Assembly (NCBI RefSeq): GCF_003144195.1
Contig: NW_020290049.1
Location: forward strand, 5,762 to 66,150
Source of the DNA: Ceraceosorus guamensis
Lineage: Eukaryota; Basidiomycota; Exobasidiomycetes; Ceraceosorales; Ceraceosoraceae
Direction of reading: 5' to 3'
DNA: 60,389 bases
Shown: positions 3 to 45,946 of the stretch, one piece after another
Layout of the letters: each line of letters starts with the position of its first letter
How positions within the stretch are numbered: the stretch's first letter is position 1
Program-made: the position numbers and the translations under genes
The notes under the pieces: generated by a model
The model's database searches: none
What the model saw: only the letters and a program-made list of their open reading frames with translations
What the model was told of the DNA's origin: nothing

Positions 3-3000
3 CGTCGCGACTTGACCTGTTCCCCTTGCTGTCCTTCGGTCTGCGCAGTGTTTGGTTTGTGCAGCACCACCTGCCATGGACCGTGCGACTGTGGCACCGC
101 CAAACGATCGGCCATCTTTGCAGAGATTGCATCTCGAGAGCAACACGATGGAGATGCCGTTCCGACCCCGGAAAGTGATTATCAGGCACACCGCGCTGCT
201 AGTCGCGCCCCTCGTGCTCTCCCGGAGACTTCGACCGCGCCGGGACATGAAGCCACTTCTCGCACTACGAAGCGGAGCGTCATCGGTGGCACCGAGCCAA
301 GGAACCTTCAGACATCCAATGGTCCAGCCATCTTGCGGAAGCGCACGTGCAACGACTGTTGCAACGCCATTTGTATTCCCAGGAAAAATTGCAACGAGCA
401 CCCAACCTGCGGTCCAGACGACTGCACAGACTGCCCACCGTATGCAGCGGAAAGATCCATCGAAGCGTCGTCCGGCTTCGATGATGGATCCGAAGTAGCC
501 TCGATCCTGTCACGAGACGACAACACTAGCCGCTTCGAGTCAGTCGACATCTACCCGCGCGCTGAGGCGAGTCCACTACTGCAAGAGCTTGTGGATTCGT
601 CTGGTTTCCAGCGCCGCGACGTCCCGCCGCCGCATCACAACCCGCCCATTCATTGCGCCAAATGTTGCTTCAAGCAAAACTGCGCGCCGTCTACTGATTG
701 CAGCCATTGTCCGCACGGACAGCGCCGTGATACGCATCTTGGGCTTCCTGCTTTGCACAAGCGTGGCTGTGATGCTTGCTGCAACGTGCCTTGCGGATGT
801 GCCGGCATCAAGAACGCCGATTGCTCCACCTGCTCGGACAGTCTAAACGGAATTGCGCCTGCACCTCAAGCAGGATGCGAGACCAAAGCGTGGCTCAAAA
901 GAAGCCCATCGACATCTGCGTCTCCAGATCCGCCACTCTCCGGCCGCGAACTCAACTCGTTGGCCAGATTTGATGTGGACTCACGCGCACAGTCGCCACG
1001 ACGTGCTGAAGAGGTCATGGTCAGCCCGTACGATTGCCCAGCGTGCTGCTCTTCGAAAACGTGCTTTGCATGCTCATGCCCCGAGCCTCCATTGCTGGCG
1101 CTTGCTGAGCGCACGGCTGCATCGCCCCTCACGATCGACGCGGATGTGAGCGCACAGCCGCAACGAAGATCTGAGCAGGTGCTGGTCACCCAGTACGATT
1201 GTCCGGGGTGCTGCAATGCAGGAATCTTGTGCTTTGCGTGCCAATGCAAGCCTCCAGTGTTGTCGCTCGCTGAGCGCACGGCGACGTCGCCGCTCACGAT
1301 CGATGCGGATGCGGGCACACGTCCACAACAAAGGTCCGAGCTCATGGAAGGAAGTCCAGATATTTGTCCTGCGTGCTGCTTCGATCCTGGCTTCTGTAAC
1401 GGCGCCTGCGGGTGTGGTGGGGCTTATGAACCTCGCTCACTCTCTCTGCCAGGGATACACTCGGTTGCGAGTATCGCCGAATCACCTCGAGCTAGATCCG
1501 CTCACGCCGCTCGTCAGGAACCCAGTACAGCTTACGTAGCCAGCCTAGGCTCGGTGCTCGCAGGCCGAGGAGAGACTGGACACCATTCGCGTCTTGCGAC
1601 GAGGGATGAGAACGACTGTAACACTTGCTGCGGTACGCCTGCAGGGTGTTCGGGCGATTGCGACTGCAAAACGCCTCCGGTGCTGCAAGAGATCGCAGCC
1701 CGCGTGCCTGCCACGGAGACTGAAAGCACTTCAGTGGCTCAGGCGCAGCCGCGCAGCGAGCTCGCGGCGATCGATGCGAACAGCTGTCCTGCGTGCTGCG
1801 CCGATCCAGTCACATGTGTCGAGTGCGAGTGTCCGCCGCTTCTCCACGCAAAGCTCGCCCACAGAGAGCTCGCGGTTAGGAACAACTGTGCTGCGTGCTG
1901 CGCCAATCCAGACACGTGTTTCGACTGCTGGTGTGATACCACACCGCCTCTCCACGCCAGACTCGCCCACAGAGCGCTCGCGGTCGCCCCAGTCATGGAC
2001 CTCGAGCGACGGGCAGAGCTCGCAAAAGGTGCGGGTAGTGTAAGCACAAGAGATGGCAGCAAAGACTGTCCTCAGTGTTGCTTGTCTCAGTCGTGCGTAC
2101 CTGGGACAGTCTGCACGGGCTGTCAGCCGCCCCTCACAAATGGTCCCGGAGCGCCATCAAGCATCTTGAGCGAGCGCGCTGAGGGTCTACAAGCAGCAGA
2201 CGGTCGGCTCAGTGAGCGTTCTGGATGTCCGAGCTGTTGTTTGCACAACTCGTGCAGCCCTGGATATAGCTGCAGTCCGTCTTGCCTTGGCAACGCGCCC
2301 CTACCGCCATGCAAAAATTGCTCTGGAAGCGGCGGCGGAGGATGGCCGCCCCCGCTGCGGCCGCGAGTAACAAAGGATGTCGGAACTTCAGGGTTAGAAC
2401 AAACGCTGAGGGAACGAAGCAGCCATAATGAAGAAAAGGAAATTTCAGCACGCGGTCTCCCAGAGTCAGAAAGGAGTTTGACAGGGCGCGCCGAGCGCAG
2501 AGTTGCCCAAGACACACCAACTCTAGCGAAGCGCTCTTCGCAGGGTGGTGCAACTTTCTCAATTGTCTCGGTCGCGTGTCCCACTTGCTGCCTCTTGAAG
2601 CTAGAGCCTTGCCCGGTATGCCCTGTCGACTGCAAGCCGCCTCCTGCACTCTTTACGCGGCGCGCGATCGAGACCGTCGAGCAGCCGCAAGTGGCATCAT
2701 CTGCCAGTATCAGCGAGGCGAGCGACGACATGACCTTGCATTCTCGTCAAGAGCCCCGGAGCACACAAGATGTCAGCATCTTGAAGGATGTCACCCTGGA
2801 CGACGTTCCAGAGCACAAAATTCCAGCACCTTCAACTCGCAGCGAGCTGTCAGCACACAGTGGTGCGCTTCGACGGGAATTCAACGGGCAGCCAAAGCCA
2901 GGAGAAGAGCTGAATTGCTGGTATTGCTGTCCAAGCGAATGCGCCAAGCACAACGCCTGCGCCACGCCGTGCAGCAATCAGGCGACGCAATGCAACGGCT

Positions 3001-5114
3001 GCGGAAAGCTGCCGGGCCATCCACCCGTCAAGCGAAGCGTGGTCGAGGTCGATGGCGCCATCGGCGCAGCGACACACAAGCGCGACACGCAAGAAAGATC
3101 GATACTTGTCCACGCCCCTACATTGGACAGACGAGGAGAAAAGTTTCAGAGGTGTGATAACTGCTGCCCTAAAAAATGCGGCGCCACTCGCGGTGGCTGC
3201 ATCAGGCCGTGCAATGACGAAGGTGTGCAGTGCAATGGCTGCTACGGCCACCTCGTCTTGCCTTCTTCGCGCAAACGAAGCGAGAATGACGTCGAGCGCG
3301 CCATCGGCACAGCGCCAAGTAAGCGTGACATGGACGAGGGTCTCACGCAAAGCCATGCTCTTACATTAGAAAAGCGACTTAAACAGATAGTCAGATGCGA
3401 CAATTGCTGCCCTATCAAATGCGCCGCGACGGGCAGCTGCGGCACGCCATGCAGCAACGTATTGGTTCAGTGCAACAATTGCCCCGGACCGATCATCTAC
3501 GGCCCTCCGGCAATGCTCGGCATCCAACACACCGATAGCTCGACAGAGCAGTCAACAATGCCTCTTGTCGCTCGGAGCCACACCAGTGATGCGACTCGAA
3601 GCGTAAGCATGGGTACAGCCCTTCTCAAACGGCAGCAATTCGAGTACGTCTGCGCTTTCTGCTGCCCAGCCGTTTGCGCCCAGAAAAATACGTGCGGCCA
3701 GCCGTGCGACCTAAAGACACAGTGTACTGGCTGCCCCGGGGCTGCTGTGCTCACTGCCAGGGCCGGTCTACAAGATGTATGGGAGCAGCATACCATCTCG
3801 TCGGGTTCTGAAAAGCGCGGATCGGCACACTTGTCTGATGGTCACCCGTCCAACGCACTGGACAATAGAGATGCTTCCCACTTTGCCGTATACAGCAAAG
3901 TCGCGCTTGTGGCGCGCACGCTGCAGGCTGACACGAAGCGCTCTGTGCCCTCGGCTTCAGAGCATTTGGCTCCAGCCGTGCTTGAAGGACGCTCGCCGGG
4001 ATTAGGTCAAAAGCCGGTGCCCTATCGATGTGACAAATGCTGCGAAAGAAAGCAAAATCCGTGCGGTGGATGGGGTCAACATCCATGTTTGCCTAACCCG
4101 TGCGACAGAGCTGTTCAGTGCAGCGGCTGCGGCAGGGCTCCAGGTCCTCCTCCCCGCAAGCGCAACGACGAGTCCGGACCAAAACCTGTCCTCATTGCTC
4201 CAGAGAAAAGGTCCGACGATGTGACTCCACTCGAAGCAAGAACGTCTCGATCGTCAACGCTCCTTCAAAATACGCTTGAATTGCAACGAAGGTCTCCCGC
4301 AAACAACGTTGGAAAGGAAGTGTATCCCTGCGACAAATGCTGCAAGATAAAGCAGAATCCATGCGGCGGTCGTGGCCAGTTCCCGTGCATTCCTAATCCC
4401 TTTCCTTGTGATCGCGCAAAGCAGTGCACTGGTTGCGGCAAGCCTCCACCCATTATAGGACAACCCCCAAAGGCGAAGCGCGACTCTGCGCGCGATCTTC
4501 GCACACTGCAAGAGAGAAAAGACGTCCCCGCAGACGCGTCGCCCGAGAAGCGATCCAACGAGGGAGACCATCTCGAGAAGAAGTCTGAGCATCAGTCGAC
4601 GCCTCATCGCAACCCACTAGAATGGCAACGAAGGTCGCCTGCAAACCGTGTTGGAAAAGAAGTGCAGCGCTGCGACAAGTGCTGCAACATAAAACAAAAT
4701 CCCTGCGGCGGTCGCGGTCAAGTCCCATGCATTCATAATCCATTTCCTTGTGATCGTGCAAAACAGTGCACTGGATGCGGCAAGGCCCCTCCTATCATCG
4801 GACAACCTCCAAGGACGAAGCGGGACGCGACGCTTGATCAGCCAGTCGTGCCGCAAAGAGCTAGCCGAGGTGTCAAACAACCCTTGGCCGCTGGAAGCCC
4901 TGCACCTGCGCTTCAAACGAGGACAAGCGATGCAGCAAAGTCGGCTGTTGATCGATTGGAGATGCACCGACGATCCCCCGCAGGCGGAGCGGTGCCCGTA
5001 TTCCGCTGCGATAAATGCTGCACCGGGAATTGCACCGGAGGTCCCGGCACTCCCATTCCTTGCCCACCGTGCAATCGTCCTGTCCAGTGTCCGAGCTGCG
5101 GTGGTTCAGTCTAA
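3..5114 (+). CDS. Cysteine-rich tandem-module polyprotein, probable Kex2-processed precursor (5' partial)
   Basis: The frame is open from the window edge to TAA at 5112-5114, about 1,700 codons with no intron visible. No ATG or signal peptide can be seen because the 5' end lies outside; the frame reads Arg-Arg-Asp-Leu at its first codons. I count about 21 modules, each opening with C-x2-C-C. N-terminal modules mostly have six cysteines (for example CPACCSSKTCFACSC). Modules 14-20 have eight; the best conserved spacing is C-x2-CC-x6-C-x7-C-x6-C-x5-C-x2-C. Linkers of 20-90 residues carry about thirty Lys-Arg or Arg-Arg pairs, usually followed by Ser, Asp or Gly, the pattern cut by Kex2 in the Golgi. 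In fungi such Kex2-processed repeat proteins yield repellents, pheromones or RiPP cores. Release of many small disulfide-rich or metal-binding peptides is my inference. I do not recognise the module family. Confidence 0.8.
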   Translation, partial: RRDLTCSPCCPSVCAVFGLCSTTCHGPCDCGTAKRSAIFAEIASREQHDGDAVPTPESDYQAHRAASRAPRALPETSTAPGHEATSRTTKRSVIGGTEPRNLQTSNGPAILRKRTCNDCCNAICIPRKNCNEHPTCGPDDCTDCPPYAAERSIEASSGFDDGSEVASILSRDDNTSRFESVDIYPRAEASPLLQELVDSSGFQRRDVPPPHHNPPIHCAKCCFKQNCAPSTDCSHCPHGQRRDTHLGLPALHKRGCDACCNVPCGCAGIKNADCSTCSDSLNGIAPAPQAGCETKAWLKRSPSTSASPDPPLSGRELNSLARFDVDSRAQSPRRAEEVMVSPYDCPACCSSKTCFACSCPEPPLLALAERTAASPLTIDADVSAQPQRRSEQVLVTQYDCPGCCNAGILCFACQCKPPVLSLAERTATSPLTIDADAGTRPQQRSELMEGSPDICPACCFDPGFCNGACGCGGAYEPRSLSLPGIHSVASIAESPRARSAHAARQEPSTAYVASLGSVLAGRGETGHHSRLATRDENDCNTCCGTPAGCSGDCDCKTPPVLQEIAARVPATETESTSVAQAQPRSELAAIDANSCPACCADPVTCVECECPPLLHAKLAHRELAVRNNCAACCANPDTCFDCWCDTTPPLHARLAHRALAVAPVMDLERRAELAKGAGSVSTRDGSKDCPQCCLSQSCVPGTVCTGCQPPLTNGPGAPSSILSERAEGLQAADGRLSERSGCPSCCLHNSCSPGYSCSPSCLGNAPLPPCKNCSGSGGGGWPPPLRPRVTKDVGTSGLEQTLRERSSHNEEKEISARGLPESERSLTGRAERRVAQDTPTLAKRSSQGGATFSIVSVACPTCCLLKLEPCPVCPVDCKPPPALFTRRAIETVEQPQVASSASISEASDDMTLHSRQEPRSTQDVSILKDVTLDDVPEHKIPAPSTRSELSAHSGALRREFNGQPKPGEELNCWYCCPSECAKHNACATPCSNQATQCNGCGKLPGHPPVKRSVVEVDGAIGAATHKRDTQERSILVHAPTLDRRGEKFQRCDNCCPKKCGATRGGCIRPCNDEGVQCNGCYGHLVLPSSRKRSENDVERAIGTAPSKRDMDEGLTQSHALTLEKRLKQIVRCDNCCPIKCAATGSCGTPCSNVLVQCNNCPGPIIYGPPAMLGIQHTDSSTEQSTMPLVARSHTSDATRSVSMGTALLKRQQFEYVCAFCCPAVCAQKNTCGQPCDLKTQCTGCPGAAVLTARAGLQDVWEQHTISSGSEKRGSAHLSDGHPSNALDNRDASHFAVYSKVALVARTLQADTKRSVPSASEHLAPAVLEGRSPGLGQKPVPYRCDKCCERKQNPCGGWGQHPCLPNPCDRAVQCSGCGRAPGPPPRKRNDESGPKPVLIAPEKRSDDVTPLEARTSRSSTLLQNTLELQRRSPANNVGKEVYPCDKCCKIKQNPCGGRGQFPCIPNPFPCDRAKQCTGCGKPPPIIGQPPKAKRDSARDLRTLQERKDVPADASPEKRSNEGDHLEKKSEHQSTPHRNPLEWQRRSPANRVGKEVQRCDKCCNIKQNPCGGRGQVPCIHNPFPCDRAKQCTGCGKAPPIIGQPPRTKRDATLDQPVVPQRASRGVKQPLAAGSPAPALQTRTSDAAKSAVDRLEMHRRSPAGGAVPVFRCDKCCTGNCTGGPGTPIPCPPCNRPVQCPSCGGSV
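4281..4824 (+). repeat. Near-identical tandem units (modules 19 and 20) in the Cys-rich polyprotein
   Basis: Two units of about 204 bases, roughly 4281-4484 and 4621-4824, match closely in protein and DNA. Each encodes QRRSPAN, VGKEV, the eight-cysteine core with KQNPCGGRGQ and NPFPCDRAKQCTGCGK, then IIGQPP and a dibasic Lys-Arg. The stretch between them is more diverged. Flanking module 18 is related but shorter before Cys6, and module 21 is truncated. This points to recent unit duplication near the 3' end of the gene. Confidence 0.8.
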
Positions 5115-5782: not shown

Positions 5783-8700
5783 CTAAGGTGATGCGACGTC
5801 TACGCGAGCATCTGATCGCCGCGGTGCGTCTTGATCCGACAATAGACTGAGCAGCGTGCCCAATTGTTCGATCTGACCAGCGGCGATGTAACACAAGAAG
5901 GGAAACAAAAGAGTGATGGGGGTGAGCAAAAAAGTGGATCAAAGAACCATTGTGCCCCAACGTTGTGGGCTGCCTCTGCCGCCAACGAGCGCTTGTCCGG
6001 GCACATCCGGCGCAAATGGGGGCCAAGCACTACTTACATCCTCCACGCTAGTGATCGACCAAACCTCGTACTCTGCAGGTTGCAGACCTTGCGACATGCG
6101 CAACCTGTCCTTGTGCGCCAGCTCCTTGCTGAGCAAATGAGCGCACGCTCTGCCAGGTCCCAAGCAAACAAAGCGCTGCACACCCTGTTCCACCTGCGCA
6201 ATCGCGAACATGGAGGGTGGGAGGGGGTCAGACGAGCTGGGTTTCTTTATCCAAGCAGAAGAGGAACTGCAATCTCCGCTCACGAGCTTATCGATGCTCT
6301 CTAGCCACCTGACCACCTTGGAGCTATATCCCATCAAATCCGCTCGAATCTCCTCCGCATCCCTCAGCAAACTCGCACCCTCGCTGACCGAGCTGACGAT
6401 CCCATACCCTTCCGGCCTCATGAGAGGCAGATATCGAATAGCCTCGCGCAGATCGTCCGATGCTCGGTTCATGAGGCTGGAGTGGTACGGACCTCCAACG
6501 GGCAGATTGACCGCTCGCGCACCCAGCGATTGTTGGCGTATCCTGTCCGACGCCAGCGAAACGCCCACGCGCGTTCCGGCTAAGGAAAGATCAGGCATGT
6601 ACCGGCGAGAGCGGAATGTGATGTGAGCGTGTGGGGCGGGGGTCCGCGGGGGGAAATTGGCGGAAATGTGGGGAAGAAGACGGGGGACGCGGTCCCCCGA
6701 TCAACAACTCACACAAGACCAGCTGAAGATTATTGTTGATGTTCGCAATCTGCAACAAAAAGGGATCCATCAGCAGATGCGCCCCAATCTAAAGCCCCTG
6801 CCCGAACACTTTTTCAGACAAGCCTACGAAACAGCCAGTCACTGACCTCCACCACCTCGTCCTGCGCTACATCCTCCACTCTGCCAGCGCTGATATCGCT
6901 CTGCGTGTCCCTGACCATCTGCATAGCAGCCAACAATTTGCCCGGTCTGACCATGACTCCAGACATTTGGCTCCTCTTCCAGCCCTTGACGATCTGTCTG
7001 CCCTGCCCGTCTGTTTCCATGGTCGCAGACGAGCATGCAGAATGATCATCGCCATCAGAAGCAGGATCCGTCTTGAGTCGGACCTGCGCTGTGCTCTCCG
7101 CTCTGACCACGTCGATGTCAGCTTCGCCAGATTGGGGCAAAATCGTCTCTTGTCCCTTGCCGCTGGAGGGGCATCAAGGTGTGGGAGCGCTTCGAGATCA
7201 GCACATGCAGCCTACTCGGAAGCGTGCGCCACGTTTCGCAACACTCCTCACCTGCCAGAGTTGGCAAAAGCCCACGTCTGACCGAATCGCGAGGGGGAAG
7301 GGCTCGGTCAGCCCAATCAGTCACTCTACGTCGGACTTGCGTCGCTTCGTCCGTCTTCAACGCACCTCAAAGACGCTTTCAGGTCTCTTGCAACCCTCGG
7401 GAAAGAGCGTGGTATGCTCGAGCGTGTTCAAGTGTTCCCTGACGCCCTGGAAACGCGTAAGCCTGACCGCATCGTCCAGTGCGAGGCTCGAGCTGCCAAC
7501 CAGGGCAGCATAGACCCCAGCTCCGTGTCCAGCGGCCAAGCTTGCGTGGTCCAGGATCAGATCGCGGGAAAAGTCCTGTCGAAGGACGGAGAGGATGGAT
7601 AGGCTGCATACTAGAATGCTCGGAAGACTGTTGTAGGGTAATGTGAGGGTGAGTTGATCGCCCGAGAACTGGGTGGGGTGTGGCGGAGATGTGCGGTGAG
7701 CACGTGTCGCAAGAGCGGTCAGAAGCCACCTGCCTGCCGCAGGAACATGCGCAGCTCACCACCATATCCCTCAACCAACCCCTTTTGCGCACATCCGCTC
7801 CTAGCCCGGGCATAAGTCTTTGCACTCCTTCCGTGCCTCGCCACGTGCCTCTCAGAACCTCTTCAAACGCTTCTCTCTGCGCAGCATCTTGCCCAGGCGC
7901 CGAGTTCGATGTGCGCTGGCTGCTGCTGCTGCTGCTGCTACTGCTGGACCGCGAGGAAGAAGAGGATGGCGATGCGAGGGAAGAGAGGCTCTCCTCCGCT
8001 TCGTGCCATACGTGCCGGGCCGATCTGAAACCTCTGTACACGTCGTTTGCCATCGTGACATATTGAGAGCCCTGTGCGGAGCAAAGTCGCGAGCACACGT
8101 GAGCCCAACAACAGTGGAGACAAGGAGCCACAGCGCGAGGGGCCAGCGTCACAGAGGAGGATGCTCGAGGGTGTGGACTGGACAGCCGAGTCAGACTTGC
8201 AGCAAAGCGAAAAGACACTCACTTGACCAGGGAAGATCAATGCCGTCTTTTTCCTCCTCATACCGCTGCTGCCCGTCGTCGTCGTCGTCGTTGCCGCACC
8301 ATCCCCTTGATGTCCCTGCGCAGCACTGCTCTGCATCTGCGTCTGTTCCTGCGCGTTGCTGGCTGATCCAGTGCCGCTCCCTGCTCCAGATCCTCCAAGT
8401 CCGTGTATGCGACTAAGACTTCCATGCGCTTTTGCGCTGCGCGCACTAGGTGCATTGGCTATGCCCGCTGCAGAGGCGTTGAAGGAGGAAGAGGGAGAAG
8501 AGTAGGTGTGGATGGGTAGGGGACGCGTCGTTCGAGACGTAGGCGCGTACTAATTTGCACACAAAAGGAATCAACGGAAAAGAGATGAAAAGAAAAATTC
8601 AGCGTCGAGCGAGCATTGAGCAAGTCGCCGCCGAGTAGACCTTTCCTGAAGCAAAGCGTATGTTGCGCGGCTGCTGCGAAAGCTCTGCTCCTTGCCCCCT

Positions 8701-11326: not shown

Positions 11327-14152
11327 ATGGAGCAGGACGCGCAGCCTTTGCTGAGTGGGCAGCAGCCGGGAGAGCGCGAGCGCGAGCGCGAGCGGACGAG
11401 TGGAGAGGGGAGGAGGGATGCGAGGGGGAGCGCAGCAGGCGGTGCGTCCGCTGCTGCTGCTGCATCAGCATCTGCATCTGCATCTGCGCGCCCAGCAGAC
11501 GAATCGGCAGCTGCTGCGGCTGCGGCTGTTGGCGTCGATGTCGACATCGACATCGCAGCTGGCATCCACACCGCAGCCGACGTGGGAGGAGGTGCGGCGG
11601 GTGCGGGTGCGGATGCGGGTGCGGATGTGGATGTGGATGCGGATGTGGATGCGGATGAAATGGCTCAGACGAAGCGCGCATCGTCGAGCGCCGGCGGCAA
11701 GTCGGAGGAGGCGAGTAGTCTGCGCTCCGAGTTGAGAGCTGCATCGATGGGCATTCACGCGTCAGCATCGGGCAAGGGCGTGGGCGTGGGCAAGGGCGTG
11801 GGCGTGGGCACGGGCGCGGGCGTGTTGAGGTACGAACCTAGAAAACGTCGTCCTTCAAGGATCGCTCTCGTTGCACCTGCACCTGCTGTTGCTGCTGGCT
11901 CGAAACCATCTCCTCCTCCTCCTCCTCCTCCTGCTGCCGCTCCTCAGGATGCGCAGCTTCGACCAGCCCACTCCGCTCATCAGGCTTCTGCGGACATGTC
12001 AAAGAGGATGGCATCGTCGCTTGAACGTCTTGCGACGCTTCCACCGCGTGCGAGCGCGGGCGCTGTGACAGAAGAGCTCGTACCCGCCTCCGCCTCCGCG
12101 CCTTACTCGCAGCAGCGCGGGAGAAAGGCGCAAGATGTGTCCGCATCAGCTTCGCACTCGCGCTCCTCGACGCATTTGGCGCCTTTTTCCGATGCACAAG
12201 CAACGATGCTGGACTCTCTGGCTGGGATTGCCTGTGCGGGCGGCAGCAGCAGCAGCAGCAGCGGCAGCAGCGCGCAAATCAGCAGCAGCACATCCGCACG
12301 CGCCGCCGCCGCCGCCGCCGCCGCTCTTCCTCGACCCGATCCTTTCCACAACGACGCACTCGAGCCGCGCGTATCGACCGCATCAGCAGCCGAGCGCGAC
12401 GACGAAGGAAGCGGAGGAGGAGCTGAAGAGTGGCGGCGGCGAGAAGCAGCGGTGCTGCTGCGGAGGTCTCTGAGCGTTTTGGGAGTGCGAGAGGATGGCG
12501 TGGGGTGTGCGATCGTCGGACGAATCTGGGCTTGTGCAGCAAGCATGAGCATGCCGGGGACAAATATGGATGGGAATGCGCAGCAAAGAGAGACGCAATC
12601 GTCGTCTTCGTCGTCGTCGTCGTCGTGGGTGGACCGTCGTAAAGGGGGGATTACTACTGGGGAAGCTGAAAAGAGGCAGAGGAAGCAGTGGGAGTGGGAT
12701 GAAAGGCGGCGGCAGGAGGAGGAGGTAAAGGCGCGGAGCGTCGATGCGAGGTCGACGCTTGGAGGAGGCGATGTGGACAGGATGAGCGGAGATGAAGAGA
12801 AATGTTGGAGAAGCTTGACCAGACTGCTGTGTACTCGACGAGTGAGTTTTCGCAGATCCTGTGGGCGGGGGGGTTGGGTGACGGGGGTTAGGATTGGGGC
12901 TGTCTTGCCTTCTTTCGCCCTCTTGCCGCCGCTCCGAGTGCTGGCCGCCATTTGCGCGCTTCATCTCTCCGATCGCTCTGCTGAATGGATATGCTGACTG
13001 ATAGACCTATCCCTTGACGCCTTCCTCCTCCCAGGCTATCCTTTTGCTCTCCAACAAGACCATCACCACTCGAGCGCATGAGAACCTCTTGGATCTGGCG
13101 TTGGAGCACATTATCCTGCTCGCCCATCCGCTCAAAGCAGCTGCGGAGTGGAAGGGTCCGGACGGCGCGGATGGCGCGTACTTGAAAGAGATGAGAGGCG
13201 GCGGCACGGTGGGGAAGGATGGACATGAGGATGGCGGTGGGAATGGCAGTGTGGAATTTGTGAGCTTGTCGGGCTTGAGAGGAAGTTGGCTTCGGACGAT
13301 GAAGCCGGTTGCGGGGGGGCCGCTTCGCCCCACGAACAGCTTGGAAGTGCGCTCCTTTTTAAACAAGGAGGACTCGCCTTGGATCAGAGGGATTTTGCAC
13401 GGGGATGAGATGGAGTGAGTAGCGCCTTTGTTCTAGCGGGGGGGGAGACATGGAAGGGGAGCCGCTCTCGATTTGGCCTTCATGCCCCTCGCGCGTCACT
13501 GCTGATTTGAATTCTACCACAGAGCTTTCGTGGCCAATTTGCCTCCTCTACCCACCGCGTGCACTTCTGCGCCGACTTATCCTCGCTTTGCGCTGCAAGG
13601 CGCTCCAAAATCTCTCGGCTTACGCCTTGCTGCTACCTCCTCAGAAGCGCAAGGCGGAGCCATGGGTCCGGATGAGGAGACTGCAGGATCTCCGACGAGC
13701 GTCGTTGGGTTCGACACTTCACTGCGCACAAAGGAGAGTAGGACTTTGGCGCCCATGTCGAGCTTGTTCAAGAATAGATTGGATGCCAGCTTCGTGGAGC
13801 ATGATGCGAAGGATGGGCGGCTAGAGTCGGGAGGATCGAGAGAGAACTCTTTGGCCAACACTCTTGCGGCGCCCTCGCCCTTTTTGACGCCTACGACCAG
13901 ACCGAGGAGCGCCACCTCCAGCTCTCGCACCAGCTCCAGCTCCAGCTCGCCAGCCTTGATCCTCTCAGCGCCATGCAAGGATGAAGACGCCTCATTGACA
14001 CGCGACGAGAAAGAGTGCACCGTGCATGTTGCGCTCCTGCAGGAAGAAGACGCGCTGGACTTTGGCAGGAAAAGCGTGCTCGCAACGCTAGGTGCGGATA
14101 TGAGACGACGGCTGAGCGATGAGCTTTCGCGCTGCGAGCCTGTCGACGCATC

Positions 14153-14185
<33 letters not shown>

Positions 14186-14326
14186 TTTGCCGCTCTTGGA
14201 CAGGGAAATCGTAGAGGTGGTGGTCAGGTGAGAAGGAAGATTTTGCGTTGATGTTCCTCTGTTCATATCTCTGTGCGCGGTCAGAAACTGACGCAAAGAT
14301 TCGAATCTATTTGGGGGCGTCGCATT

Positions 14327-21060: not shown

Positions 21061-24000
21061 TCAATGACCGCTGCTCATTCGAGTCAGGATATTGGCAGCT
21101 CCAAGCACCTGCTCTTGCTCCAGCGCATCACCTACGCCAGCCATGGACGACTTTAGACGCGTCAGTCGTCCTTGGTAGCCTTGACTGGACGCATTCTCCA
21201 ACGCAGCCGTCGTTCGCACAAGCCGCCGAGGCTGGCTGGACAGCGACGCTTCATCCGCTGAGCCAGAGGCGGTCGTGGGCGTCTGCTGCGCATCTTTTTG
21301 CAAAAAAGACAGGCGAGCAAAAGGCGCGATTCAGGATCCTAACACTAGCTCGACATTTCACGCGAATCACTCACGCTGCTTTTGCTTGATCGATTTGCTC
21401 TCAATCGGCCAACGAGACTTTTCTTTGATGCTCATCAAGGGTACGACCTGCTTGATGGGCGAGCGAGCTCGAGCAAGCCGTGTCTGGCTTCTCTTGAGTT
21501 GAGAGGAAAACGGCGTAGCGAAGATCTGAGTATCATTTTTGCCCGCGAGCGTCGATCGATGGCCCCTGATCGCCTCTGGGCTCGTACCTATGCGGCTGGA
21601 TATTTGCGTCGCTCGATGCACCCCTGCTTTGTATCCAGCATATCGAGCGCTGGTACCGATGCGATTGGCAGGAAAGCTGAACTGAATCTTTGACTGATTC
21701 GGAAGAGTGGTTCAGAGTCGGCGGGTGATCAAATGAAAATGACCTCGAGACGACAGGTTCCTCACCACCTCTTTTGCAAAGCTGCTGCTCAATATACGAG
21801 CTTGAACCTGCGCACCTTCTTCGATTGGCGGTGGTTGAGCTCTCCGCAGTATTCTTGTCAGTGCTGGAGCCGAGTGCATGTACGTGCGCGACGATTCCTC
21901 TTGACCCTTCACCTCCTCTGGACACATCGACTGCTTCACTTTCTCATCCTCTCGCTTCACTTTTCGCTTGATACGAGTCAAAGTCCTTCCGAACTGCGAA
22001 CCAGAATCGGATGAACTCGGGCGCGGGACATGGCAAGACTCCTTGATACCCTCGGGCGACTCCTCCACCAGCACATCTTCTATCGGAATAAAGTCTTCCT
22101 GAAGGTGCAGCGCTGAAGATAGGGGTACGATGGCTCTGCTTCCAAGACCGCGCATAGGATGCCGTTCGTGCGCCACAAGGTCTCTGCGAAGAAGCCTGCG
22201 AGTATTTCCTGAATAAAAGGCGCCGTACGCCTCCGTTCGAGGCATGCGGATCGGCTTCTTGACGACCGATGTCAAAGGCGCTGAGCTCGGCGGAACCTCG
22301 CTCAAGGCAGTGCGAGACGAAGCGTTGCGCGATCGATTGACAGCTGTGTTGGCCGAGTTTCGGGCAGACGTGCTTCCCACAGCATGGACCTTGTGTTCCC
22401 ATCCTGGCTTTGGGTAGTTCGGAGGCGCTCGCTTCCCGGGCATCTTACCGCGCTCCAGTAGGCTCAAGTCGTTCTTGACGCGCGATGTCGCCTCGACGAC
22501 GCTGCGTGTCTGGTGAGACAAGTGCCACTTTTGCTCTGCATACCAGCTCGGCTGCGGATCGTGGTGCCATCGTCCATTTTGACCAAAGCCGTCGATTGGA
22601 GAAGCTGCTAGCTCGGCGTTTGATGGTCTCTCGCGATGTGTGTAGGAAGGAGAGACCAGCTTCAGATCCTTGTGCATCTTCTGCTTGCCTTTTCCCGTCC
22701 CACTTTGCAAAGTCGAAGTCGCTGCTGTCTCTCGATGATGAGCAAGACTGCCAAGCTCGATCTGCGTAGCTCGAGTCGTTCGATGTGAGGACACGGGACT
22801 GTGTGGCATGCTCGTTTCCGAGATCTTGACGCCATCTTGCTTCCGGCTTGCGACAGAATGCTGCGACCGAGTTGGTGCCAATCTTCCGGGCGTATGGTTG
22901 CTTGGAGCGTACGGATTGAGATAACGAAAGTGCGAGGCAAAGGAAGACAAGACGCTTTCTTGGGACTTTTCGCGCTGCAGATTACTCGCCGTGTGGCCGT
23001 TTCGGACAGCTTGAGGGACCCGCGGACCAAGCCCATCAACTCCCGCTGGGCGAGTAGGCTTGATATGCTCTCGCATCGACGCTCGAGCTAATGACGATGG
23101 GCTTGTCGCAGCTCCGTCAGAGCTTTTCTCTCCCTTGAGCGATGCGGTGATTTTCGAGATTGCTTTGCGAAGAATCTCGTTCTTGCCGGGCCTAATATGC
23201 TCGTCGAGCGCCTTGACAGGCTCGCTTTCTCCTGGCCATCGTCGAGCTAGCTCTGGAGGAGTGACAAATTTTCGAGCGCTGGAAATGGGCAGCTTGCTCC
23301 GATGGACGGTAGCACGCCGTGCAATAGCCGTGGGAGTCATCGCGGTCGTCGTGAGCAATACAGTGCGACGCATCAATACGAAGACTCGGCTCGGGCGAAG
23401 CGCTTTCCCAGGATTTGCTGAGCGACGGTGAAGATGATGAATCGGCGCTATCTCCGACGACTCGGTGCGTGAAGGACTTGACTGAGCCGCTCCATGAAGC
23501 ACGTAGCCTCTTCCAGCAGGGTCCTCACGCAAGTGGACGGGAGAGGAGAGTTGAGACGAAAAGAAAGCACGATGATTGGGCGACGCTCCTGGGCTGCTAA
23601 ACAGCTCCTCTGCTGGTCTGGGGCTTCCCGCACGCAAAGGAGAGTTTGCCTTTGGACTGGACTTGCTTCCGACAGAGCGGCTACTGCGCGGGTTTCCGTG
23701 AATGTCAAAGCCTGTATCTGCTCGGAAAGGTGCACTTTCGACTGCGCGAACCGCATCTTTCACCTTGACCGGAGGCACGGCCGGGCCTTTGAGCTTGGCC
23801 TTCTTCGGATCCAGACCCGCCTGCTGACGACTTGGCGTCTTTGGCGGACCGATCTTGACGGGCTTGAGGGGAACGGGCTCGACATGAAAGTCGCCATGTG
23901 GCGCCTGGGCCAGATGGTCCGAATATGTGAGAGCCTTGGGCTTCTTGACGGTCCCGGCAAGCTTGCGCGTGCCAAAGAGGAATGAGCTGGCCAGCATGTT

Positions 24001-24852
24001 GCGATTGTGCCACTCCGCTGGGCGTTTGCGCTGACTCCGACCGACCGATTCGGCCGTTGACTCGAGCTCAGGATCGCTTGCTTTCGGCGACTTGTTCAGA
24101 TCGAAAGAGATTCGCCGGGATGAAGATTGGGTCCGCGAAGGTGGTGGTGACGTGGCAGAGTGACCCAGTGAGTCTCTCCGAGGAGGACTCAGAAGCACAT
24201 CTCCGGGCGCAGAGTCGCTTTGTGGAACGATGTGTACTGGGGATCGAACGAGCTGCTCCCCTGGATCGCTGTACATTCCCGGAGAGCCAGGCGGTGACTC
24301 AAAGGGGAGAGCGGATCTTTGAGAGCCGTGATGCGGGACATGTTCCTCGTAAGGATGAGCATGTCCACCGTGTCGCGCACCTCTGATCTGTGCGACTTGC
24401 GTCTCGAGATCCCTGAGCGTTGCGCGGTGTTCGGCTGCACTTTTTGGCGACATGGATGCAGCGTCTATGCTCTTCATCATGTGCAAGAAGTTTTCCGCCT
24501 CTGTTACTGGACTCAGTGGGCTTGGTGGTCCTCGCTTGACGAGTGTGGCTGAGATGTTGTCCCGACGCTGATGTTCGTGCTGATGATCGTGAACATTCCA
24601 CGAAGTGTTGCTGCTGCCAGAGCTAGAGGCCGTGCGGTCAGGAGAAGGAGAGAAAACGTCATGCATGGTCTCGTCGGATCGTGTAGGTCCGCGGGAAGAC
24701 GTTGGGGAAGGAAGAATGTGCATCGTCTGATCCGAATGAATAGGTGAATGGGCCGCCGGCTTTCTTTCAGCCGTGTCTGCAGCCTTCTGCTCGGGAGTCA
24801 ATCCGCTCTGTGCATGGATAGGAGCGTCATTCAGCAAGCCTATAGGTGGCAT
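21061..24852 (-). CDS. Gene B: large Ser/Pro/Arg-rich protein of unknown function, paralogous in part to gene A
   Basis: Exons 24852-21766, 21687-21375 and 21293-21061 join with GT-AG ends and matching phases to about 1,200 residues. I chose MPPIGLLN as start: it is the first ATG after a TATATAG word at about 24932-24939, and no upstream exon joins in frame. The protein is mostly disordered, rich in Ser, Pro, Arg and Lys, with basic patches such as RIKRKVKRE. Residues about 105-165 (ENFLHMMKSIDAASMSPKSA, then EHRATLRDLETQVAQIRG) resemble a stretch near the end of gene A. No enzyme motif is visible. Its stop at 21061 follows a helical-looking segment. Function unknown; the tandem arrangement suggests a shared origin with gene A by duplication. 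Confidence 0.6.
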
Positions 24853-24967
24853 ATCATCGCGCGCACGGTCCCCTGCACTGCTCGAGGCAGCTGAACGGTC
24901 TGAAGAGCGCACAGGCCTCCACCTTATGCACCTATATAAGTCTCTTAAAATCCTTTAGGTCGAGCTC

Positions 24968-27900
24968 TCATTCGATGCAGCACTCAACTCTCCTCATAGC
25001 AAAACTCACCGATCCGGCGGTATTCGCAATCTCCCAGTCCGTGCGTGGCCGTTTTGCAGCAGCCTTCTTCTCAACATACAGCATCGGTGCTTTGCCCTCG
25101 GAGTCTGTTGCGATTCTGAGCGTCTTTCCCGCATGAACTGCTGCACCCGAAGCAGTAGCCTCATGTGCGCCCTCTTTGATGACGATTGCTTTCTGCCGAC
25201 CTACGCTGTGCGCGCCAAACGCCCGTTCGATCGATTCTGTCGAGCGCGCTCGCTTGTGTTTGGGTGACTCGGGCTCCATGGACATCTGCAAGGCTCGCTG
25301 CAAGTCGTCCGGATCAGTGTCGGCCACGTTCATGCCTGTCTTTGCATGGATGTGGTGAGCCAAATCAGCGGTGGAAATGCCGGACGGTAAACGAGTAGGA
25401 GCAACAGGGGGACCATGTTGCCATCCCGGACCAAGAATGTCACCAGCAAGCTGGTGGAACAAAGCCTCTTGTTGCGCGTGGTTCTGCTTCAATCGTGCCA
25501 AATTTCGCCGTTCAGCACCCAAAAAGTCGAGCCTGTGACCGAGCTCATACACTTCGTGCGAGGGCACGTGCTGCATGCCATGCACGCTCAGGCGGACCTG
25601 GTTGAGCGCATCCAAGTGCTCCTTGCGAGTTCTAGGCGACATTTGGTTTGCGTCTTGCTGTTCCATCTCGTGCAACAGACTTGCCAGACCCAGATCCACA
25701 GGCGAGTCGGGAGAATGCGGAGGTGACCTCAAGGGGGAGCCTCTGCGGTAGATTGCTTGCTTGAGCTTGGGGATAAACTCTCGCTCCTCGTGAATGGTAG
25801 GCATTCGCTCGAGAGGCTTTGGGATCTTTCGGCGCAACTTGGGCTTCCTCAATATTGTCTCAGTACTCGATGGCCGCAGAGGTGTAGCAGGCACGCGAGG
25901 CTGAAAGATAGCTTTGGTCAGCCGTGGCTGAGGCAGAGCGTGCGCTCTCGACTGCGCATGCAGCCACGCCAAAGTAGCTTCTGGCGTTCGCACCTTGGAG
26001 TCAGCCGTCTGCACCTGCTTGTTGTAGTCGGCAATGCGAGGGTTTGGGCCCACATACGGCGTGCCGCGCTGAGTAGAGACCACAGTGCTCATCTCCGGCT
26101 GAGGTTTGTTCGGCGAAAACGCGTACGCGTAGCGCTGAAGCTTCTCCACCCCCTTTTGACGTTCCTTGGCCGCCATGATCTCCAACGGAGTGGCAAGGCG
26201 AAACTTGCGCGCAGCAGCTTCAGGGGCGCTTCCGAGCGTGCGGCGAGCCTTTGGCTGTGCCAGCACCTGTCCGCATTCGGCGCAGGTGAGTCTGCCGCAC
26301 TTTGAACACTCGAGCACTGCATTGATCTTGGATTTGCTGCTCTCTCCTTGCTCAAACATTCTTGCTTTGCCGTCCAATGCCAGTTTCGAGAATCGTTGCA
26401 GCTCCGGTGAGCGCCGTTGAAGCTGCGGCGAGCGTGCAGCACTCGAAGTCGACTGCTTTCTTGGCCGACCGCGTCCTCTTCTGGGCTGCGGAGCGTTCGC
26501 CTCCCCGACAAGACTGGCCTCGTATTCGGACCGCAACCATTGCGGAGTCGTACGTTGTCTGAGAGAGCGTCTTGGCGCTATCGAGTCATCGATCGTTGAA
26601 GCACCAGCTCTATGCTGTTCAGAATGCTGCACAGCCGCGCCATTATCCCTTTGATCCAAAGAACGAGAAGGCCCAGCCTCTTCCCCTCCAGACTTTCGCT
26701 TACGATTGCCGGTGAGCTCCGCGTGCTGAGCGTGAGGTTGTTGCCCATGCGCAATGGCCAGATGCTCTCCAAAACGGGAGGAAGAGAGTCGGCGCTCGCT
26801 GGTAGATGGGTCAGCGCCAGACAAGGGGACGATTCGCTGTTCATCTCGGTGAGATCCTGGTTGGCCTCTGTGTGTAGAGGAAGGGGTATGAGAGCTTTCT
26901 CCGACGCTTGGTAGCGCGTGTGCTGCTGCACTATCGGGGTGCGACGCTCCCTGTGGCGTCGCGAGAGAGAGCCAATCATTCGGTGCCGCGTGGGAGGCGG
27001 TCGCTCGTGCTCCAGAGGCACTCGTGTGCGTGCGGACAGGTCCAAGGTTGAGGTCGGGAAGATCCAAGCCGGGGCCTCGCTGCCTGCCTGATCTCGACGC
27101 ATGGCCCGCATGCCCACGCGGTCCTTGTCTGCCGCTTGACGGGCTGTGTGATGTGTGACTACTTGTCCCTGCACTAGTCGACGTTGTGTAAAAGTCCGAG
27201 GTGTGCAAAGACATTGATGCAGTGCGATTGCGCACAGGTCCACGCCTGCTAGAGCTGCTCGAAGAGGATGAGCTCGAAGATGGCTGCGTCGTCGTCATGA
27301 AATCCGATGTGTGCAAGGGATCAGAACTCGAGTCGCTCGTCGTATGTCTTGCGAGAGGAGGTTGGGAGACTGCTCGTTGCTGGGTCTGTATCCCGCCACC
27401 CGCAGGGACGGGAGGAGATGCGGACACCACATGTCGCACGATTTGCCTCCCGCTATTGGTAGCAAGAGCCGGGCGTGGCGCGTCATGCTCTGTGCTCGAG
27501 TGCGTTGCGGTGTTGCCAGGGGAGCTGCGGCTAGGCGCTTCCGCTTGTGGCGGTGAAGACACGAGGCGAGAGTGGTGGATTCCGACCTCTCTTATTTCTT
27601 CACGCGCGGCTGGCTGGGAAGCAGCTGCGGTTCGGTGCGGTACCGACGGTCCCGGCAAAACGAGGGGCGAAGATTGACTGCCAAGTGTGGCATGCTGTCG
27701 CGTAGCAGCAGCGTCAGCAGAGTCGACATGAGACGGAGATATTGCGCAACTCACGGGCACTCGTACAGCATCCAAACTCTCCTTTCCGCGACTCGCTACA
27801 TTTTCGAAAGCTTGCACCATCTGCTTGACGCTGGGTCTGACGAAAGGTGCGGCGGGGCCAACTTCAGCGGATGTGGGTGGTGTTGGAGCGCGCAAGACGA

Positions 27901-30621
27901 GTTGTTCCGGTGCATATGTCTGCTCCCCTTCGCGCCGAAGCAGAGTATCCGTAAGGGCTGGAAGTGAGCGACGATACCTGTCCAAAGACTCGTTTTGTCT
28001 TCCTGACGAACTAGACTGCAAGCGCCTCATGTCTTCTTGTCTGGCAAGGGAAGTGCGTACGACTTTCTTGTCAGGAATGCTGGGAGAGATGTTCATGAGC
28101 CTAGGCTGGTCGGACAAATGCTGAGAGTGAGAAGTGCTCGACTCGCCGTCCACTGGTCTCGCGACGACCAGTTCAGAAGCGAGGATGGGCTGCTGGCGAG
28201 CAGAGGGCGACTGCACGCGAGCCAAATGGCTATCCCACGCACTTGCCATCTTCTTTACGTGACCCGAGCCCCATAATGGCGAGCCGTGTGAACGCTCCGG
28301 TCCGCTCAGATCTATGGTCGATCTGACATCTGATGCAGGGCGCGACGTATCGTCGAAGAATTCCGTCAAGGAGGGCAAGCGCGAGCGCGAAGCTCGCTTG
28401 TCGAGAAGTTGGACGCGCAGCTCGTCCATGGCTCGTTTGTCGTTGTGCTGCGCTTCGTCAGGAGTTCGCTGCGATGCAGATCCCCTCAATGGGGCTCTGT
28501 CAGCAACTTGGCGAGAGTCTTGCTCTGCTTCTCGTGCAGGACTACCAGGCGGCGTTCTTGCAGGCCTTGCGGGACGAACAGCGTCAGTTTCCCGTGCCGG
28601 CAGTCTTGGCACCTGCGTCAGAAGTTCAATTCGCTGATTGGACGGCGAGCGCGGTGAGACGCCTTGATAGTCAGGTCCAGTACCTTCAGGCCTTGCTTGT
28701 ATCGCTGGCCTCGGAGCCGGCGCTTGGGGTCGGAAGGGATTTGCAATCCCCGCCCTTTGAGAAGCGATAGTCTCGCTTACCTGCGTGTGGAATCCTAGAG
28801 TGCCTGGTGGAGCTGTAGAGCTCGACGCAGCCGGAGGACGAAGACTGTGAGCCTGATTCTTGTGTTTGATCGACTTGATCGTCTCGCGCCACATCTTGTC
28901 AACTTCTTCATCACTGAAGCGGTGACTTGGACCTGGAGCAGCAGTAGACGGTGCAGCCATAGGCAAAGCGGGCTCTCTTGAAGTGGTCGCACGCACAGCG
29001 TCCCGTGGAACGGTAGCAGGCGACTCCCCGCCTAGGGCACGGTGTGAGACCGTGTCGTGCAGCGAGCCAGAAGGTGCGGCCTGACTAGCGCCTTGTGCCC
29101 TTCCCTTGGTACGCAAAAGAGCCACGACTCCCGGAGAAAGCGGGCTTCGAAGTGTGCTTTGCGATGTTCGAGGCATTTTTGACCTGTCCACATCGAGCTC
29201 TTGCGCTGGTCTCTTGGTTGCCGAACGCCACGCGGCACCGGCGAGGGTGTGCTGCATCGGGACGTCGTGTAGACTGTCATGGGCCAAGTTTTGGAGCGTA
29301 GCAGGAGCAGGTAAAGGTGTCGTAGGTGCATGTGTGTGCGCATCGCCGTGCACCACCCGCCCTTGGTCCGGAGCAGCCGTGGGAGAAAGACGACTCTGGG
29401 CGTCTTTCAACGCATGCGCACGCGTGGAAGAGTTCGCATGATCGGCATCGTGTTGCGCAAACTCCTTGGCGGGCGTAGCAAAACGTTCCTCGACGAGTTT
29501 CCGTGCAAGTTCAGGATGATGTTGCTGCACAAAAGCAGGCAACTCCATCCTGTACCTTCCCGGCGCTTCTGCAAACCGCAGCAATCTCTCGGCAACGCTC
29601 GGATGAGCTTTGTGCGCTAGCGCCAACAGCTCGGCCGAAGGTCGTGGACGAGGGTTGCGATTTTGCGTGTCAGATGATTTGTCGGATGAAGTGCGCGACG
29701 ATGCTGCGCTATCCGACCTTTCACTGGTGCTACCCAGACTCTCGGACGGAGGCTGCTGAAGGCGATGCGCGTGCTCGGCCGCAGGAGCCTCTTTGTTGCT
29801 GCGCACAGGCATGGGCACATTTTCTCGCTCATTCTCAAGCATGTGCACATCGGCCGGCGGCGTTTGGTTTGCCTGAGCTCCTCTGCCGGCGGAGCGAACA
29901 GAACCTGGCGAAGCTTGAAGCGCGGTCCTTTGCGCCTTGTTGCTCGTTGCGGCTTCTTCTCCAATATGAGCAGGCCGTGCTTCTCCCAATAGCCGCTTGG
30001 ACGAGGGATGGATGCGTGGCGGAGAAGTGTTGAAGCCCTCAGCTGGCGTCGGACGCGCCTCTGCATAAGCCACGTGTCGAGGTGTCGAATGCTTTGCATA
30101 GACGCTGTGAAGGTCGGGCAGACCAGTCGTGTGCCCTTCACCTAGAGCCTGCAAAGTCGCAAGTGGCGATCGAAGGATGAGAGAAGGCCTCATCCACATC
30201 CGTGTGATCATCAATGCGGACGTAAACTCACCTCTGCTCTCACATTCCTGAGCGGTCCATCATGTCCGACCTTTGCAGCTTTTTCCCACGCCTTGACATG
30301 TTCTCCGACGCTGGGTCTAGCTTTCCAAACGACCGTTTGCTTGCCATCGTCGGAAGAGTACGTGTGCGAGGCCCAGCGCCAATACTTTTCCACCTTGTCC
30401 GGTCGATGAGATGGAGGATCACTTGTCAGAGACAGACGTGAGACGGCTCGATGGAGTGCAGGCTCAGAGCGTGCCGTGCCCTCGATAGCGCCGAGAAATT
30501 CTTGTCCTGCTCTTTTTGAAAGAATGCTGAGATGCGCATCGATTGCTGCTCTGCTCTGCGCCGCTGCCAGACAGAGCCAAGCGAGCACAAAGACGCGCGA
30601 GATGACGCGCATGTCGAACAT
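24968..30621 (-). CDS. Gene A: signal-peptide-bearing giant protein with AT-hook-like motif and CxxC pair, unknown function
   Basis: Exon 1 (30621 or 30612 to 30232) begins MFDMRVISRVFVLAWLCLAA, a strong signal-peptide pattern with likely cleavage after AQSRA. A canonical 83-base intron (30231-30149) joins it at phase 0 to exon 2 (30148-24968). The total is about 1,850 residues, mostly disordered and Ser/Pro/Arg-rich. Visible elements: a motif RPSVGEHVKAWEKAA in exon 1 echoed by RPSVKQMVQAFENVA in exon 2; two LHTSDF-type repeats beside a Ser run; RRGRGRPRKQ, an AT-hook-like core; CSKCGRLTCAECG; and near the end a module shared with gene B (MSPRTRKEHLDALNQVR). The frame ends at 24968; a donor at TCG|GTGAGT just before could lead elsewhere. 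A secreted, nucleus-acting effector is possible but only inferred; a nuclear protein with a misjoined first exon is the alternative. Confidence 0.55.
26264..26312 (-). other. CxxC-x4-CxxC segment in gene A (possible zinc knuckle)
   Basis: The minus-strand frame encodes CSKCGRLTCAECG within gene A. Two CxxC pairs four residues apart resemble half of a zinc ribbon or a tight knuckle. No further Cys or His pair is close by, so metal binding is only suggested. Confidence 0.6.
26450..26482 (-). other. AT-hook-like motif RRGRGRPRKQ in gene A
   Basis: The core Arg-Gly-Arg-Pro preceded and followed by basic residues matches the minor-groove AT-hook consensus. It lies about 170 bases 5' (in the gene's direction) of the CxxC pair. 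A DNA-binding motif is unexpected in a protein with a signal peptide. Confidence 0.6.
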
Positions 30622-45273: not shown

Positions 45274-45946
45274 CAGGCTCAGTCTCAATCTCCATCCCGT
45301 TTGGCCCCTCCGCGCGCGGCAATCCGTCCGGGCAGCCATCTGCGGATTTTCCCAAGCAGTGATAGAGCGAAAGAGTGAGACATCGGCACGGCATCTTGAA
45401 TCTGCGTCCGCGCCCGCGCGTCCTCTTTCCAAGGTTTCTCCGCCCTGCTTACCTAGCTATACAGACGCGGACGGCAGCAAGCATGCATGCACCTGCGGCG
45501 AATAGGCCAGACTCACACTGCAGATCGATCGGCGCTCCGTCTGGTGTCTATGCCAGACATGCTGGTCTGATACTTTTGATTCCATGCTTGTGCGTGCGAG
45601 TCCGTCCAGTCCAGCTGCATGCATTCATGCATGCATGCAGGCAGTCTCGAGTTCTCAAGCTCCGTCAGGCCGGGGCCTCAATCTTGTGCTAGCGAAGGCC
45701 GGCAGAGGTGGAGGGGGGAGACAGAGGAAGGAAGTGGTGTTGCAGCCTGCGGCTCCACTCACGCTAACGGCTTTGCAGCTCCACCATCCAGCACCCCGGT
45801 GCGAGCCAGAGCTATAATACGGCGAACCACGTACCTCCTATTCAGCCCCTCACCACACACCCACGCAACATCTCATCCTCACATCCTACTCGCGCTCACA
45901 TTCGACCACGACGACGACGACGTTGGACCATTTTCGCGGATCGACC

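Follow-up and report, generated by a model that had tools for sequence, protein, structure and literature searches.

A large open reading frame with 21 cysteine-rich cores in Ceraceosorus guamensis, a candidate Kex2-processed repeat precursor

Precursors that a Kex2 protease cuts into repeated peptides are already known in fungi. According to the available part of the survey by Le Marquer and co-workers (PMC6339444), a Kex2-processed repeat protein (KEP) has a signal peptide, lacks membrane segments, contains three or more similar fragments delimited by KR or RR, and has a repeat share of at least 15%, the share being calculated as the smallest motif times its number. The same part of the survey reports 1,193 KEPs, 1,114 of them with a single motif type, and repeat numbers of 38 and 129, the latter marking the upper end. 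The peptides are usually 9-24 aa long, and the putative peptides of yeast-like Basidiomycota are longer. In that portion of the text the string 'cystein' occurs four times, in connection with two-Cys pheromone-like peptides, and 'disulf' is absent; both strings are absent from the main text of PMC9769878, and 'cystein' is absent from that of PMC7329392.

Three repetitive proteins of the smut fungus Ustilago maydis are also relevant here. Rep1 and Hum3, as described in the accessible portion of PMC4617103, are precursors of 652 and 828 aa with 12 and 17 imperfect repeats, respectively; the repeats are amphipathic, 31-55 aa long and accompanied by Kex2 sites. Rsp3 is a large repetitive protein with a Cys-rich part, and, according to the available text of PMC5923269, is predicted to remain unprocessed. 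Dikaritin RiPP precursors (ustiloxin and its kin) likewise carry cores that are repeated between dibasic sites, as far as the main part of PMC9769878 describes them.

The window analysed here is a stretch of 60,389 nucleotides from the genome of C. guamensis (contig NW_020290049.1; G000:C54:5762-66150). At its left end lies a plus-strand frame of 1,703 codons that runs without interruption to a TAA. From the base composition, a stop-free run of this length has a probability of about 1e-25, and the frame is real, as the preliminary description of this DNA had proposed in calling it single and uninterrupted. The earliest in-frame ATG, at position 1017, is found beyond core 4. Because it comes only after four cores, the start of the gene is placed to the left of the window, where the contig consists of 5,761 bases, all of them N (G000:C54:1-5761). 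The right edge of the window (60389) also adjoins a run of N, in this case of 1,987 bases (G000:C54:66151-68137).

Other genes in the window include an RCC1-type repeat gene (34720-36183, +) and an alpha/beta hydrolase gene (45768-47357, +), both assigned from Pfam matches. Two minus-strand frames of 1,080 and 1,763 codons (21712-24954 and 24968-30259), which are 13 bases apart and match no Pfam family at E <= 0.001, are perhaps one giant gene. A malonyl transferase considered for minus-strand frames at about 6,000-8,500 was without Pfam support and was dropped.

The large frame contains 21 cores with the motif CxxCC (Table 1), whereas in 2,000 shuffles the motif occurs 1.1 times on average and never more than 6 times. 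Nine cores have six Cys, eleven have eight, and one has seven. The count of about 21 in the preliminary description stands, and its division into cores of six or eight Cys holds for all except core 4. Together the cores hold 149 of the 150 Cys in the frame within 515 of its 1,703 residues, and Cys makes up 28.9% of their composition. Cores 5-10 belong to a compact type with six Cys, 15-17 residues long with CxC at the end, and cores 14-21 to an eight-Cys type, 28-36 residues long. All eight of the latter end in QCxxC and are followed by G (five cores), P (two) or Y (one). No identical pair occurs among the 21. To our knowledge, the repeats of Rep1 and Hum3 are without Cys and repellent repeats are free of Cys clusters, a pattern that the cores of this frame, with their high Cys content, do not follow. 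A structure predicted for core 14 from 13 aligned modules, out of the 21, had a mean pLDDT of 63 and a pTM of 0.30, and is too weak for use. Elsewhere in the window, a minus-strand frame of 110 codons (13894-14223) contains CxxCC six times and is 13.6% Cys; a simple repeat that reads this way by chance may account for it.

Table 1. Positions of the frame, its Cys-rich cores and selected linkers in the window
Feature	Position	Strand	Remarks
Open reading frame, candidate giant repeat precursor	3..5114	+	TAA after 1,703 codons; 5′ end beyond the window
Core 1	18..92	+	8 Cys
Core 2	348..434	+	8 Cys
Core 3	654..710	+	6 Cys
Core 4	768..833	+	7 Cys; another Cys, outside the core, 14 residues on
Core 5	1035..1079	+	6 Cys in 15 residues
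Core 6	1200..1247	+	6 Cys
Core 7	1365..1415	+	6 Cys
Core 8	1617..1667	+	6 Cys
Core 9	1785..1832	+	6 Cys
Core 10	1887..1934	+	6 Cys
Core 11	2067..2123	+	6 Cys
Core 12	2226..2321	+	8 Cys
Core 13	2577..2633	+	6 Cys
Core 14	2916..3002	+	8 Cys; C-terminal family of related fragments begins here
Core 15	3153..3242	+	8 Cys; C-terminal family
Core 16	3396..3482	+	8 Cys; C-terminal family
Core 17	3651..3734	+	8 Cys; C-terminal family
Core 18	4029..4130	+	8 Cys; C-terminal family
Core 19	4329..4436	+	8 Cys; near twin of core 20
Core 20	4671..4778	+	8 Cys; 3 of 36 residues unlike core 19
Core 21	5007..5099	+	8 Cys; ends 4 residues short of the C-terminus
Site-free stretch, cores 6-10	1170..2006	+	No KR or RR
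Linker 14	3003..3152	+	Three dibasic sites; spacers 3036-3083 and 3084-3134
Linker 15	3243..3395	+	Three dibasic sites; spacers 3279-3326 and 3327-3377, each akin to its linker 14 counterpart
Linker 18	4131..4328	+	Three dibasic sites; spacers 4164-4211 and 4212-4292
Linker 19	4437..4670	+	Three dibasic sites; spacers 4482-4553 (weakly akin to the first of linker 18) and 4554-4634 (akin to its second)

Judged by sequence likeness, cores 14-21 are true repeats. When fragments of at least 8 aa were grouped by single linkage at P < 0.01, in a test whose shuffles left Cys in place, all eight core fragments of the C-terminal part joined a single group; the grouping involved up to 496 comparisons without correction, and some other pieces in the groups, for example spacer 243-254, are taken to be chance joins. 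With Cys positions fixed, 21 of the 28 pairs among the eight core fragments were alike at P < 0.01, including 12 at P < 0.001, and the remaining 7 were not alike by this test. Likeness was also seen between spacers. Three sites with related spacers are present in four of the seven linkers among cores 14-21, namely linkers 14, 15, 18 and 19. Residues 1012-1027 in linker 14 resemble 1093-1108 in linker 15 (P = 0.0005), and 1028-1044 resemble 1109-1125 (P = 0.001). Between linkers 18 and 19, residues 1404-1430 resemble 1518-1544 (P = 0.0005), and the likeness of 1388-1403 to 1494-1517 is weak (P = 0.012). Overall, 4 of 45 spacer pairs reached P < 0.01.

Dibasic sites number 32 (19 KR and 13 RR), in agreement with the thirty or so pairs previously reported in the linkers, and none is located within a core. 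KR is in excess, with 19 occurrences against a mean of 4.6 and a maximum of 13 in 5,000 linker-only shuffles, and the mirror pair RK occurs just six times. RR is about as frequent as expected (13 versus a mean of 11.4 in linker-only shuffles). Either pair is present in 15 of the 20 linkers, where random placement gives a mean of 15.2 (P = 0.69). Linkers 6, 7, 8, 9 and 11 are without any KR or RR, and residues 390-668, which include cores 6-10, are consequently site-free. Since placement is close to chance and five linkers lack sites, the title of the preliminary description, which had the modules 'separated by dibasic sites', is only partly right: the wording suits cores 14-21 well and cores 1-5 and 13 loosely, and it fails in the middle of the frame.

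The distance between sites and cores was also compared with chance. Across all cores, the nearest upstream site is closer than expected (summed distance 358 versus 536, P = 0.007), and the distance to the nearest downstream site is not below chance (P = 0.47). For cores 14-21, seven have their upstream site 6-13 residues away and the eighth has it at 29 (P = 0.011). On the downstream side, five of the seven cores that precede a linker have a site at 9-13 residues, and the remaining two at 26 and 48 (P = 0.17). With respect to sequence context, 27 of the 32 sites have S, G, A, D or E as the P1′ residue, as compared with 53 of 96 positions that follow another basic residue in a linker (Fisher P = 0.003), and Leu occupies P4 at 8 of 31 sites, as compared with 7.9% in linkers (P = 0.002); both P values are too small, because sites in duplicated units are not independent. 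The aliphatic class (L, I, V, M) at P4, with 9 of 31 sites, shows no clear enrichment over linkers (P = 0.07), a value to be read with the same caution. For four yeast Kex2 enzymes, acidic or small residues are over-represented at P1′, P2′ and P4′ of cut sites, according to the part of PMC2515848 that was available. In linker 5 an RR precedes SE, and in linkers 6 (1248-1364) and 8 (1668-1784) a single R precedes SE, a pattern that would fit either a loss of dibasic sites or the use of cuts at single basic residues.

Several of these observations would also be expected of a large, Cys-rich modular protein that is secreted or wall-bound and remains whole, with basic pairs that are incidental, as in Rsp3. 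The cores are parted by sites no better than chance would have it, RR is not enriched, and cores 6-10 have no site between them. Rsp3 itself is predicted to be non-processed and has a Cys-rich region (PMC5923269, as far as its available text goes), although this is one region and not a string of cores. Against an uncut protein stand the excess of KR, both over shuffles and over RK, the absence of sites from the cores, the small or acidic residue that follows the pair, and the three-site linkers that have been kept through duplication. On balance we regard this alternative as unlikely, though it deserves some weight.

By homology, the same genome has a kexin gene. A single genomic locus matches the proprotein-convertase P-domain (C32, L006:1240-2796, −); its frame has Peptidase_S8 and P_proprotein, and it matches yeast kexin (2id4) at E = 2e-124. 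Carboxypeptidase S10, the family of Kex1, has matches at 17 places in the genome. A strict in silico digest of the visible part of the frame at KR and RR produced 33 pieces. Fourteen of these contain a single core and are 33-91 aa in length, two contain several cores (five in 281 aa and two in 163 aa), and 17 are coreless, one of them consisting of just the first two residues of the frame in the window. The earlier proposal that one transcript could yield some twenty peptides agrees with this digest for the 14 of 21 cores that would be released singly, and not for the groups of five and two that would stay joined.

With KEPs, the frame has in common several related fragments between KR or RR sites and a kexin gene in the genome (PMC6339444, PMC7329392, PMC9769878). 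The related fragments are the eight C-terminal ones, more than the three that define the class, and their likeness was judged by an alignment test of ours, where the published procedure uses Fimo. Reckoned as eight times 46 aa under the smallest-motif rule, they account for 368 of 1,703 visible aa, a repeat share of 21.6% that applies to the visible part only. The frame differs from KEPs in its size of at least 1,703 aa, in its 21 visible, diverged cores and in the Cys content of those cores. Most KEPs have one motif type, whereas here the cores vary in Cys number and spacing. The 21 visible cores are no record for repeat number, given the 38 and 129 reported in the accessible text of PMC6339444. 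Rep1 and Hum3, to the extent that the available part of PMC4617103 describes them, resemble the candidate frame as smut precursors with long repeats and Kex2 sites, but are shorter and have amphipathic repeats. In dikaritin RiPPs a UstYa-type gene would be expected near the precursor. No match to UstYa (PF11807) was obtained in the genome, and likewise none in 14 control genomes, so the search had no positive control. Dikaritin cores are short.

Relatives of the frame were sought among proteins, in the genome itself and in the literature. A search of approximately 5.8 billion proteins gave no match at E <= 10 among 6,532 candidates with lengths of 937 to 2,980 (0.55-1.75 times the query), and a second search of a database of that size gave none at E <= 10 among the 8,000 candidates sharing most words, with lengths of about 316 to 1,004. 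In a control search, a neighbouring gene for a Ysc84-SH3 protein (54045-56411, +) retrieved 131 proteins, and the best among the matches listed was from Ceraceosorus bombacis, with 92% identity over 507 residues; the database therefore includes a close species. The C. bombacis counterpart of the frame is either outside the length limits (>2,980 aa), unannotated, too diverged or absent, and the missing protein matches are weak evidence of novelty. Within the genome (23.8 Mb, 199 contigs), no second locus was detected with the whole frame at E <= 1 or with three pieces of it at E <= 10, just 2 to 4 candidates being scored in each search. Titles and abstracts in a literature set with few subscription journals described no Kex2 precursor with Cys-rich or disulfide repeats, and a published KEP table may still hold such a case. 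A precursor this rich in Cys was not found in the papers and databases searched. The preliminary description had suggested a new precursor architecture; the frame is better regarded as a variant of published Kex2-processed repeat proteins, as these appear in the available parts of PMC6339444 and PMC4617103.

At E <= 1, the frame matched neither a Pfam family nor any PDB sequence. A match to a known zinc or structural repeat profile, which had been named beforehand as an outcome that would count against a secreted precursor, was accordingly not among the results. These data bear on a second alternative, in which the frame encodes an intracellular metal-binding repeat protein. Its CxxC...CxxC cores would hold zinc or copper in the manner of zinc ribbons or metallothioneins. 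The abundance of Cys in the cores and the QCxxC ending shared by cores 14-21, with G following in five, are features that such a protein could have, and with the N-terminus outside the window no secretion signal is on view. The lack of Pfam and PDB matches and the Kex2-like context of the sites argue against it, and we consider an intracellular protein of this kind improbable. Metal binding as such is still compatible with the missing profile match and could take place outside the cell as well.

Substitution patterns were compared in six pairs of units. Units 19 and 20 have a dS of 1.11, a dN of 0.185 and a dN/dS of 0.17; in the other pairs dN/dS is 0.25 (units 15/16), 0.43 (14/15), 0.42 (5/6) and 0.66 (9/10), units 18/19 are not computable owing to saturation of dS, and the low values are rough because dS is above 1. 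The ratios for units 19/20 and 15/16 point to a translated, constrained frame. Stronger purifying selection in the last third of the frame was considered, and is not borne out by the six pairs. An alternative in which the frame is open by chance or is decaying, in a genome rich in GC and with no working gene behind it, would suit the absence of homologues in our searches and the dN/dS values of 0.42-0.66 in three of the six pairs, but is very hard to reconcile with a stop-free run whose chance is about 1e-25 and with the two lowest ratios.

We conclude that the frame is probably the 3′ portion of a Kex2-processed repeat precursor of the KEP type, very large and with Cys-rich cores. The precursor would enter the secretory pathway by means of a signal peptide encoded to the left of the window, and disulfides would be formed, or metal bound, in its cores. 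Kexin would then cut after KR and RR; the sites and their context are seen in the frame, and a gene for the enzyme is present in the genome. The clearest part of the proposed arrangement is provided by cores 14-21, where, at linkers 14, 15, 18 and 19, the core is followed by KR, a spacer, KR, a second spacer and then KR or RR, and this unit has spread through internal duplication. As no two cores are identical, each transcript would give rise to related but distinct Cys-rich peptides and not to copies of one. Taken as a whole, the interpretation offered in the preliminary description is partly supported.

A broader reading can be put forward more tentatively, as a possibility that we would not yet favor. 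A single gene may encode 14 or more different mini-proteins that are rich in disulfides or bind metal, and perhaps more than 21 if single-basic cuts are used; this library would have been diversified by internal duplication, in a precursor confined to a narrow fungal group. It would then be a counterpart, within one polyprotein, of venom-like or plant cysteine-rich peptide arsenals. Described members of Ceraceosorus either cause leaf disease on Bombax or live on leaves as epiphytes without symptoms, according to the available part of PMC11687029. If the reading is true, one gene would enable the fungus to produce and vary a broad repertoire of stable mini-proteins. Such a gene would offer novel disulfide-rich scaffolds, and it would bear on how leaf-dwelling and plant-infecting relatives of the smuts act on their hosts or on rival microbes.
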